From NCBI GenBank assembly GCA_003224135.1, contig QHYO01000579.1, positions 1-12,025 on the forward strand: a stretch of DNA of 12,025 nucleotides, in the 5' to 3' direction. This DNA comes from Acidobacteriota bacterium (GTDB taxonomy: Bacteria; Acidobacteriota; Terriglobia; Acidiferrales; UBA7541). Shown here in pieces: positions 4,477 through 5,924 of this stretch; position 1 is the stretch's first letter; each line of letters opens with the position of its first letter. Below the pieces are notes generated by a model. It did not search any database and had not been told where the DNA came from. It saw only the letters and a program-made list of their open reading frames with translations. The position numbers were made by a program, and so were the translations under genes.

Positions 4477-4499
4477 TGTCGCCGGTGTGAAAGAAACGC

Positions 4500-4528
4500 T
4501 TGCGAAATGTTGCTCTCAAATGTATTCT
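4500..4528 (+). promoter_or_regulatory. Predicted sigma-70-type promoter of the sulfurtransferase leader
   Basis: A -35 like TTGCGA (4500-4505) is followed after exactly 17 bases by a -10 like TATTCT (4523-4528). The expected +1 is near 4535, one base before the ATG of the Cys-rich leader ORF. The region from 4697 to the sulfurtransferase start shows no comparable promoter, so transcription probably has to cross the leader and its terminator. Prediction only. Confidence 0.5.
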
Positions 4529-4535
4529 TCTGTTG

Positions 4536-4619
4536 ATGAGTTTCTATCCCCAGATGAGCATGGCGATGCGCGGTTGTTGTCCGTGCTGTTCCCGCATGCC
4601 GTCTGGCGAGGGGAAGTAG
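4536..4619 (+). CDS. Cys-rich leader peptide upstream of the sulfurtransferase (27 aa)
   Basis: A 27-codon ORF ends in RGCCPCCSRMPSGEGK, with four cysteine codons within five at 4575-4589 (TGT TGT CCG TGC TGT). The ATG at 4536 coincides with the predicted transcription start and has no Shine-Dalgarno, suggesting leaderless translation; in-frame ATGs at 4554, 4560 and 4566 are alternatives. The stop TAG is at 4617-4619. An intrinsic terminator follows at 4657-4696, and the sulfurtransferase gene begins at 4743. Cys-rich leader peptides controlling sulfur-metabolism genes are known from mycobacteria, including ahead of related sulfurtransferases, so the peptide's role is probably in its translation and not in the product. 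I have not compared it with any database, and its expression is inferred. Confidence 0.6.
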   Translation: MSFYPQMSMAMRGCCPCCSRMPSGEGK

Positions 4620-4666
4620 ACTATCTAGTTTGACCGTCTAACTTCGAAGGATTTTGACCCACCGCC
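4605..4666 (+). promoter_or_regulatory. Possible antiterminator pairing in the sulfurtransferase leader
   Basis: GGCGAGGGG (4605-4613, the last codons of the leader ORF) can pair with CCCACCGCC (4658-4666, the 5' arm of the terminator) in 7 of 9 positions. A ribosome stalled at the Cys codons would leave 4605-4613 free for this pairing and block the terminator. A ribosome reaching the stop codon at 4617 would cover it and let the terminator form. The pairing was found by eye and no folding energy was computed. Confidence 0.4.
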
Positions 4667-4696
4667 AGTGCAATCGGCAGGTGGGTTTTGTGTTTT
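4657..4696 (+). terminator. Intrinsic terminator (attenuator) before the sulfurtransferase gene
   Basis: ACCCACCGCC (4657-4666) pairs with GGC-A-GGTGGGT (4676-4686): ten base pairs with one bulged A (4679) and a 9-base loop. The T-rich tract TTTTGTGTTTT follows at 4686-4696. It sits 180 bases beyond the recQ stop and only 46 bases before the sulfurtransferase ATG, downstream of the leader peptide ORF. That position fits an attenuator better than a plain recQ terminator, although it could serve as both. Confidence 0.75.
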
Positions 4697-4742
4697 CAGG
4701 GCAGATTCTGAATCGAGGCAAATTTGAAAAGGAGAGTAAGCG

Positions 4743-5621
4743 ATGTCCGACTATAAGCATCCCGAAGTATTGGTCACAACCGAATGGGCGGCAGAACATC
4801 TGAACGATCCGAAAGTCCGTTTTGTGGAAGTGGACGTGGACACGAGTGCCTACGATCAGGGCCACATCGCGGGCGCGGTAGGCTGGAATTGGCAGACACA
4901 GTTGCAGGACAACGTGCGGCGAGATCTGATCGAGAAAGCCGCGTTGGAAAAGTTGCTGTCCGATTCCGGCATCTCCAACGACACGACAATCATTCTTTAC
5001 GGCGACAACAACAACTGGTTTGCGGCCTACGCTTTCTGGCAATTGAAATTGAATGGCCATAACGATGTACGTTTGCTGAACGGTGGCCGCAAAAAGTGGG
5101 CCGAAGAAAAACGCGAATTGACGACAGCTCCGGCAAAGGTGACGCCGGCATCGTACAAAGTTGCCGGCACTGACGAATCCATTCGCGCAAAACGGGACAC
5201 GGTGTTCGCAGTGGTGGACAAGAAATCGAAAGGTCAGCTTGTTGATGTGCGTTCCGTGGACGAGTTCACGGGGAAAATTCTTGCGCCTCCGGGACTTTCG
5301 GAAACGGCTCAGCGTGCAGGACACATTCCCGGCGCTGCCAATATTCCGTGGGCACAAGCCGCGCGCGAAGACGGCACGTTCAAGTCATACGACGAACTAA
5401 AGCAGCTCTACGGGGGAAAGGGAATCGACGGCCGCGACGAAGTGATTGCTTATTGCCGCATTGGCGAGCGCAGTTCGCACACCTGGTTCGTGTTGAAGTA
5501 TCTACTCGGGTTCGAAAATGTGCGCAATTACGACGGTTCGTGGACCGAATGGGGCAATCTGATCGGTGCGCCGATCGCGAATCCGACGGTAGAAACGGCG
5601 TCCGCCGCAGGCACGCGATAA
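4743..5621 (+). CDS. Thiosulfate sulfurtransferase, two-domain rhodanese of the CysA/SseA type
   Basis: This cytoplasmic enzyme moves sulfane sulfur from thiosulfate to a thiophilic acceptor through a persulfide on an active-site cysteine. The protein has 292 residues in tandem rhodanese domains, the usual length. The C-terminal domain (about 165-275) carries the active loop YCRIGERSSHTW with C238. The N-terminal domain (about 8-125) has ILYGDNNNWF with D88 where a cysteine would be, so that domain is catalytically silent. DVDTSAYDQGHIAGA (31-45) and NYDGSWTEWG (262-271) strongly recall mycobacterial CysA2/CysA3. The ATG at 4743 has a strong Shine-Dalgarno (AAAAGGAGAG) with an 8-base gap. An attenuator-like leader with a Cys-rich peptide precedes it, a terminator follows directly, and tRNA-Cys sequences lie just downstream, so the unit looks monocistronic and cysteine-responsive (inference). 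Confidence 0.93.
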   Translation: MSDYKHPEVLVTTEWAAEHLNDPKVRFVEVDVDTSAYDQGHIAGAVGWNWQTQLQDNVRRDLIEKAALEKLLSDSGISNDTTIILYGDNNNWFAAYAFWQLKLNGHNDVRLLNGGRKKWAEEKRELTTAPAKVTPASYKVAGTDESIRAKRDTVFAVVDKKSKGQLVDVRSVDEFTGKILAPPGLSETAQRAGHIPGAANIPWAQAAREDGTFKSYDELKQLYGGKGIDGRDEVIAYCRIGERSSHTWFVLKYLLGFENVRNYDGSWTEWGNLIGAPIANPTVETASAAGTR

Positions 5622-5649
5622 AAAGATTCCCGCCGTTTCGGGAATTTTT
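5622..5649 (+). terminator. Intrinsic terminator of the sulfurtransferase gene
   Basis: ATTCCCG (5626-5632) pairs with CGGGAAT (5639-5645) around a 6-base loop. The stem can be extended by a G-T wobble and A-T pairs using AAA at 5622-5624 and TTT at 5647-5649. Runs of T follow the stem. It begins immediately after the stop codon. Confidence 0.8.
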
Positions 5650-5677
5650 GTGATTTCGTTTTGTTTTGCAAAACGAA

Positions 5678-5718
5678 GGCGCGGTCGCCAAGTGGTAAGG
5701 CAAAGGTCTGCAAAACCT
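5678..5718 (+). pseudogene. 5' half of a tRNA-Cys(GCA), broken after the anticodon loop
   Basis: GGCGCGG (acceptor 5' strand), T8, GCC/GGC D-stem with an AAGTGGTAA loop, and an anticodon arm AGGT-CTGCAAA-ACCT are all present in order, with anticodon GCA at 5710-5712. From about 5719 the sequence no longer matches a tRNA. The T-arm is missing, and there is no CCGCGCC-T-CCA to pair with the acceptor strand. The matching 3' half was not found elsewhere in the window. It cannot fold into a functional tRNA. The 13 bases GGTCTGCAAAACC at 5705-5717 recur in the intact tRNA-Cys at 5877-5889. Confidence 0.75.
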
Positions 5719-5802
5719 GCCTAAATCAGAGGCTCCGTGCGGTTTCGGTTTCAATAGCTTACAAGGACTTGAATAGGGGTAGATAGGCGCTGCGGGGGCA
5801 TT

Positions 5803-5836
5803 TTGGGTACAGGTTTGGGTATAACTTGGATACAGG
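5803..5836 (+). repeat. Three phased 11-bp direct repeats, consensus TTGGGTACAGG
   Basis: TTGGGTACAGG (5803-5813), TTGGGTATAAC (5815-5825) and TTGGATACAGG (5826-5836) lie head to tail, with starts 12 and 11 bases apart, close to one helical turn. They lie between the broken and intact tRNA-Cys genes. The middle copy contains TATAAC (5820-5825), which could also be a -10 for the intact tRNA. Arm-type integrase sites near tRNA attachment sites have this look, but no integrase is present here. Confidence 0.5.
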
Positions 5837-5847
5837 ATTTTCATTTT

Positions 5848-5924
5848 GGTAGCGATGCCGAAGAGGTCGAGGCGCTGGTCTGCAAAACCAGTCTTAACGG
5901 GTTCGAGTCCCGTCGCTACCTCCA
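5848..5924 (+). tRNA. tRNA-Cys, anticodon GCA, CCA encoded
   Basis: The cloverleaf is complete: acceptor GGTAGCG/CGCTACC, D-stem GCC/GGC, anticodon stem CTGGT/ACCAG with loop CTGCAAA (anticodon GCA at 5882-5884), variable TCTTA, and T-stem ACGGG/CCCGT with loop TTCGAGT. The discriminator is T (5921), the hallmark of tRNA-Cys, and CCA is encoded at 5922-5924. Its acceptor and D-arm differ from the broken copy at 5678, so the two derive from different tRNA-Cys genes. Confidence 0.95.

Follow-up and report, generated by a model that had tools for sequence, protein, structure and literature searches.

A 12,025-nucleotide stretch of acidobacterial DNA (the window; contig C597 of an 804-contig assembly) carries, ahead of a two-domain rhodanese sulfurtransferase gene, an element that, with a probability of roughly 0.9, is a ribosome-mediated transcription attenuator sensing charged tRNA-Cys. 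Judged from sequence, its logic is the classical one of attenuation, here for Cys, and the family, phylum and regulon are new. The parts of the element, their conservation and covariation and the target genes are observed directly, and from these we infer the transcript start, ribosome stalling, termination and the response to cysteine. The closest named matches of the sulfurtransferase come from assemblies of Acidobacteria gp2 and Candidatus Acidiferrales (an order in the class Terriglobia). A RecQ-type helicase gene lies upstream, followed by TTGCGA and TATTCT, the leader ORF, the terminator (4658-4697) and the sulfurtransferase gene (4743-5621), whose ATG at 4743 is preceded by AGGAGAG. Elsewhere in the window, at 3-2881, an enoyl-CoA-hydratase-type gene adjoins a PaaA/PaaC-type gene (Pfam), and we take the pair to resemble boxC and boxB, genes of the aerobic benzoyl-CoA degradation pathway. 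The features of the locus are as follows.

4500-4505, plus strand: -35-like TTGCGA of the proposed leader promoter, 17 nt before TATTCT and under the threshold of a simple scan
4523-4528, plus strand: -10-like TATTCT, 7 nt before the leader ATG
4536-4619, plus strand: leader ORF of 27 codons plus TAG, peptide MSFYPQMSMAMRGCCPCCSRMPSGEGK, read from the sequence, in a frame that relatives keep constant with respect to the antiterminator arm
4550-4564, plus strand: segment 1 (protector), pairing with 4594-4607, from the whole-leader fold and control pairings
4575-4589, plus strand: regulatory codons TGT TGT CCG TGC TGT, where 74 of 90 copies keep three or more Cys in this frame
4602-4613, plus strand: segment 2, antiterminator 5' arm TCTGGCGAGGGG, from covariation and folds
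4613-4645, plus strand: nested hairpin P2, GAAGT (4613-4617) with ACTTC (4641-4645), which covaries
4658-4668, plus strand: segment 3, CCCACCGCCAG, common to the antiterminator 3' arm and the terminator 5' arm, from covariation
4676-4697, plus strand: segment 4, GGCAGGTGGG, and the T-rich tail, from covariation and the fold
4743-5621, plus strand: two-domain rhodanese sulfurtransferase, the putative controlled gene, with PF00581 in two stretches and top PDB sequence matches 1uar, 3aax and 3hwi
5626-5650, plus strand: intrinsic-terminator-like hairpin directly 3' of the sulfurtransferase gene, read by eye (a simple terminator scan gives the same inverted repeat on the minus strand only)
5848-5924, plus strand: tRNA-Cys(GCA), linked and probably not attenuator-controlled in the window

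Direct reading bears out the 27-codon leader with its CCPCC motif (ATG at 4536, stop TAG at 4617-4619) that an earlier sequence-only reading had described. The same holds for its 10-bp intrinsic terminator before the sulfurtransferase gene. This hairpin has 10 pairs and a single bulged A, folds at -16.4 kcal/mol, is followed by TTTTGTGTTTT and was not among the results of the simple terminator scan of the window. Homologues of the sulfurtransferase occur in 43 of 61 genomes, and upstream DNA was compared at 29 loci in correct orientation, leaving out L015, where the contig ends. At 15 same-genus loci, the window included, a Cys-rich ORF, typically M..QKNA..CICCMCCMRVSSGAGRLS, precedes CCCACCGCCAG-loop-CTGGCAGGTGGG-T tract. 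The attenuator was to be abandoned if relatives kept neither the Cys codons nor its terminator; both are conserved. Eight homologues that are more distant (68-74% identity), seven of which belong to the same genus, lack the leader, and six homologues from other families have either no leader or Cys-rich ORFs of a different build. Among the named loci L033-L037, a Cys-containing leader is found at L034-L037 together with the same chassis (the arm TCTGGCGxGGG, the nested hairpin and a CCCACCGCC terminator) and in a degenerate version at L033; some of these are the same places as others (L034 and L129; L037 and G081:C370). A protein start of MxxYAH was dropped as a mark of leader-free homologues, as L034-L036 start in this way and have leaders.

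Two observations concern individual leaders at these loci. In L017 (G022:C15), one of the 15, an in-frame TGA stands just before the Cys run of an otherwise intact attenuator, and may reflect sequencing error, decay or recoding. The Cys-rich ORFs before sulfurtransferase homologues at L027, L029, L030 and L031 are of other designs, with CSCSGGR before a GC hairpin or CCC at or near the ORF end, and are perhaps independent Cys leaders in related families.

The partner that had been proposed for the 5' arm of the terminator, GGCGAGGGG (4605-4613), pairs with it in a covarying manner, although the antiterminator is longer than first described and comprises TCTGGCG and GGG around a nested hairpin. 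The leader stop sits at the 5' arm of P2, two pairs of which differ in the window from most relatives on both sides. The 1:2 helix joins CCAGAAGA, in the QKN codons, to TCTTCTGG. When folded, the RNA 4600-4672, before segment 4 exists, takes the antiterminator form (-24.2), as does 4588-4694 (-38.6); 4630-4694 takes the terminator form, and the whole leader RNA combines the terminator with the 1:2 helix (-60.3). The minimum-energy fold of 4600-4694 is the terminator (-32.4), not the antiterminator, and the switch would therefore rely on folding during transcription.

Covariation was assessed in alignments of increasing size. RNAalifold found no covarying pair among 15 close copies. In alignment A3 (19 sequences), five pairs of the antiterminator and P2 are changed on both sides, which 1 of 500 shuffles equalled, and the terminator of these 19 close copies is without covariation and no better than shuffles. 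Alignment A4 (39 copies) holds 21 double-change cells against 9.6, a value that no shuffle reached, and a number of further pair types not above shuffles. Alignment A5, with 96 copies (one row being an opposite-strand echo, L146), was fitted to the terminator and P2, not to the outer antiterminator helix. Here, 82.7% of antiterminator and P2 cells are paired and 12 of 17 pairs show double changes, a number that one slid register equals. Double-change cells number 116 (36 in the outer antiterminator helix, 80 in P2 and none in the inner GGG:CCC part) against 39 in shuffles, a count inflated by the relatedness of the copies, several of which come from one genome. The score of 0.201 exceeds both the 0.112 of shuffles (0 of 500 reaching it) and the 0.037-0.078 of slid registers, which preserve relatedness. 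For the terminator, 95.6% of cells are paired and 7 of 11 pairs show double changes, in 29 cells versus 4.3. Both pairings named for a covariation check by the sequence-only reading thus covary over the 96 copies.

The pairing of segments 1 and 2 has a mean of -18.1 in native leaders, compared with -13.6 when shuffled and -14.8 when partners are swapped. It beats the swapped-partner mean in 73 of 90 copies and all 20 shuffles in just 36 of 90, and is weak in Thr-type copies. This protector pairing completes the trp-type design. In L220, L224, L225 and L226, all before sulfite reductase, the leader ends in ISGQRSFRT and the arm contains the self-complementary CTCTGGCCAGAG; these leaders may be a subtype with a different fold.

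The hairpin evidence bears on a second explanation, translational control, in which a stalled ribosome would free the ribosome-binding site in the mycobacterial style and the hairpin would be incidental. There is precedent for this: Cys leaders of Actinobacteria, including those of mycobacteria, are described without conserved terminators (PMC1262725), those of Mycobacterium smegmatis are cited as translation attenuation (PMC13236596), and one mycobacterial Cys leader precedes cysA2, a related gene (PMC4633059). Here, however, the hairpin has a T tract, is paired almost throughout and covaries, while AGGAGAG starts about 32 nt past the T tract, outside the covarying structures. Control at the level of translation is thus improbable, and transcription attenuation is the preferred reading.

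Across its six frames, the window has four Cys within five codons a single time. Dinucleotide shuffling gives at least one such motif in 23 of 200 versions of the whole window, and shuffling of 4478-4742 does so in 13 of 2000. Because shuffles also produce it, CCPCC is a mildly unusual chance event that is only suggestive when taken alone, and it is conservation that settles the matter. An ATG ORF reaches the arm in one fixed frame relative to it in 82 of 90 copies. Within the 19 codons before the arm, the 74 copies with at least three Cys in this frame compare with 18 and 2 in the other frames, and the mean number of Cys is 4.17 compared with 1.52 and 0.30. Both Cys codons are used in the fixed frame (TGT 267, TGC 108). 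Eight of the 16 copies with fewer than three Cys are Thr/Ile leaders before aspartate kinase, and the remainder include L197, L221 and L222, with the Cys run in another frame.

This pattern weighs against a riboswitch or T-box type RNA that binds a ligand or tRNA and in which the Cys codons are a by-product of a conserved RNA. Leader segments 1 and 2 are indeed conserved as RNA, but Cys is kept in a single frame with either codon and gives way to Thr/Ile before aspartate kinase, and the only Rfam matches at gathering score are tRNAs, which makes such an RNA very unlikely. In Rfam 15, the attenuator matched no known family (with E relaxed to 1, unrelated sub-threshold matches joined the tRNAs), and for lack of a family match a riboswitch or T-box identity was rejected. 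It is just as hard to sustain that the Cys-rich peptide is itself the product, binding thiols or metals ahead of an ordinary terminator: CxCC patterns recur among the leaders, but the peptides vary widely across genera while the pairing persists, and the chassis also occurs with Cys-free leaders.

The weak -10 box stands 7 nt ahead of the leader ATG, and the leader mRNA is therefore probably leaderless, or nearly so, with a predicted transcript start at or beside the A of the ATG. Such a -35/-10 pair is found in 14 of 16 same-genus sulfurtransferase leaders. A rule that requires a -35/-10 pair with 4 of 6 bases each, ending 4-12 nt before an in-frame ATG, is satisfied by 37 of 89 leaders (25 of the 37 at 6-8 nt) and by 36 of 82 in the fixed frame, compared with 0-13 leaders at twenty shifted registers, and an SD-like motif precedes the leader start in 1 of 89. 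Promoter spacing and the scarcity of SD-like motifs across leaders thus also point to a probable leaderless start. A simple promoter scan finds nothing on the plus strand between 4697 and 4743, where transcript starts were to count against the attenuator. The scan decides little, since the proposed leader promoter (8 of 12 consensus bases; threshold 9) escapes it too.

The element combines the marks of a transcription attenuator: clustered regulatory codons, a terminator before the gene, an antiterminator that shares the 5' arm of that terminator, a 1:2 protector and targets in the cognate pathway. With transcription beginning at or beside the leader AUG, as the promoter spacing suggests, a ribosome would load at once. 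When cysteine is sufficient, the ribosome would reach the stop at 4617 and cover segment 2, leaving segment 3 to pair with segment 4, and RNA polymerase would stop after 4685. When cysteine is short, the ribosome would stall at 4575-4589 and block segment 1, so that segment 2 is left free; segments 2 and 3 would then pair around P2, the terminator would not form in time, and the sulfurtransferase gene would be transcribed. In the absence of a ribosome, segments 1 and 2 would pair and the terminator would form by default. The attenuation model of the sequence-only reading is thus supported by conservation and covariation and is amended by the addition of the 1:2 protector and the probable leaderless start.

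The leader and terminator claimed upstream of the sulfurtransferase gene are real, and the probable attenuator that they form is one of several in this genome. The sulfurtransferase gene and cysD (C500) each have one, as does aspartate kinase (C304), there with a Thr leader. A further Cys leader, on C68, stands at the contig end and has as its relative L223, found before sulfite reductase. Two RNA models were searched, R1, which includes the Cys region and was trained on Cys leaders, and R2, which covers the chassis only. In the order, R1 matched 74 of 95 genomes (E 0.1); in the class, 125 of 299 (E 0.01; 67 of the 125 outside the window's own family, and no match in 174); and in the phylum, 13 of 297 (1e-4; ten of the 13 within the class, and no match in 284). 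These counts cover the Cys or Thr type and include Thr-only genomes (e.g., G010), and their weakest matches were not inspected singly. Searched in 12 genomes, R2 gave 35 matches with E below 0.01, in 11 genomes. Of these, 27 are Cys leaders (2 to 9 Cys), located before sulfurtransferase (7), cysD (8), sulfite reductase (6), outer-membrane proteins (2), siroheme synthase (1), tRNA-Cys (1), an unassigned gene (1) and a contig end (1). The remaining eight, of Thr type or similar, stand before aspartate kinase (7) or semialdehyde dehydrogenase (1). All 35 were read out.

A survey of downstream genes covered 96 distinct copies in 97 entries (L190 and L226 are one place), which are not a random sample. 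The longest ORFs close behind the copies cluster into 23 sulfurtransferases, 20 CysD, 16 sulfite reductases, nine aspartate kinases, six outer-membrane receptors, five rhodaneses, three sulfonate-type binding proteins, three TauE and ten singletons, and L213 has none. Pfam assigned PF01507, PF01077/PF03460, PF00696, PF25183, PF00581, PF13379/PF09084, PF01925, PF19307 (SrpI-type encapsulin shell), PF00266 (desulfurase-type), PF04358 (DsrC) and PF04143 to representative targets; the name CysD for the PF01507 group rests on the CysN-like ORF that follows, read by eye. At the five rhodanese loci and L237, an encapsulin-type ORF comes next (by sequence motif, with Pfam for L196 only). SrpI is present in 9 of 151 genomes, and among these nine sampled encapsulin loci the attenuator is found at four and absent at five. 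The targets of most copies belong to sulfur assimilation, with outer-membrane receptor and unassigned targets remaining. The predicted regulon thus comprises sulfurtransferase, cysD, sulfite reductase, siroheme synthase, sulfur transporters and the SrpI encapsulin operon. In addition, a weak Cys-leader match (L241) precedes a peroxiredoxin-like gene, recognised by eye.

Of the 16 same-genus loci that have a leader, 14 carry a tRNA-Cys gene on the same strand 3' of the leader-bearing sulfurtransferase gene; the eight leader-free homologues have none (within 1.5 kb or less). L009 has no tRNA-Cys within reach, and L008 has a broken-looking one not called by ARAGORN; at L123, the sulfurtransferase gene is just 79 codons long. 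Control of this tRNA together with the sulfurtransferase was rejected as a main claim: a terminator-like hairpin, read by eye, separates the two at L018 as well as in the window, another tRNA-Cys is present on C546, and an attenuator directly precedes tRNA-Cys in 1 of 95 genomes (exact pattern). That case, L151 (G004:C241), places the attenuator 36 nt before tRNA-Cys in a genome without a sulfurtransferase match, and is possibly a sensor tRNA controlled by its own attenuator, or else a relic of gene loss. At L157, a tRNA-Cys lies upstream of another Cys attenuator. By eye, the window (5678-5924) and L004, L010 and L018 each contain a truncated tRNA-Cys 5' half and, about 100-200 nt behind it, a different tRNA-Cys that is intact, an arrangement that looks as though the gene had served an integrated element, or the scar of one, as an attachment site.

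The same chassis occurs with Thr/Ile codons, Cys-free, before aspartate kinase, and sensor codons therefore look exchangeable. Weaker matches suggest leads to further versions. An Ile/Val-rich ORF outside the fixed frame (L192; R2, E 0.048) precedes an acetolactate-synthase-like gene with TPP-enzyme domains. In the three phylum matches outside the class, an ORF with Trp-Trp precedes a trpE-like gene, one rich in Trp a trpB-like gene and one with Met/Cys a MetY-like gene (genes by eye). We give even odds to the broader proposal that Acidobacteriota possess one exchangeable chassis on which the sensor codons alone vary, Cys serving a sulfur regulon that includes a sulfur nanocompartment and, in one genome, tRNA-Cys, and Thr/Ile serving aspartate kinase. 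If so, attenuators would have spread between pathways through codon swapping on a common RNA, and Cys, Thr/Ile and perhaps other versions on one chassis would form a natural series on how attenuators change specificity. Cysteine attenuation is known from few cases, and a terminator-based family across one class predicts which genes form the sulfur regulon in abundant soil bacteria, most of them uncultured, and offers a possible regulatory route to the SrpI encapsulin operon.

Enteric attenuators of the trp/thr/his type follow a four-segment logic of 1:2, 2:3 and 3:4 pairings with regulatory codons in a leader ORF. The family described here shares this logic and codon placement, but differs in its probably leaderless start, in the hairpin nested in its antiterminator and in the use of one chassis for different amino acids. 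Canestrari in 2020 reportedly described leaderless polycysteine leaders of mycobacteria. Those leaders resemble the present ones in their short Cys-rich ORF, in a leaderless start (here probable) and in having the cysA2 sulfurtransferase among their targets; unlike them, with no conserved terminator reported and control cited at the level of translation, the present family has a covarying terminator and antiterminator and belongs to another phylum. Open-licence literature, mostly titles and the starts of abstracts, yielded neither a Cys attenuator in Acidobacteriota nor a description of this family or regulon, but terminator-based Cys attenuation is not new as a kind, since it is predicted for the uORFC-8-2 motif before cysS in Rhodobacterales (PMC8632094). 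Both are predicted ribosome-mediated Cys attenuators with an intrinsic terminator; compared by description rather than alignment, uORFC-8-2 has two tandem Cys codons and cysS only, whereas the present family precedes several sulfur operons. Finally, the SrpI family-2 encapsulin of Synechococcus and its cysteine desulfurase are reported to rise on sulfur starvation (PMC8049743), and the Cys attenuator before the SrpI operon at four of the nine sampled loci is proposed here as a route for such control.
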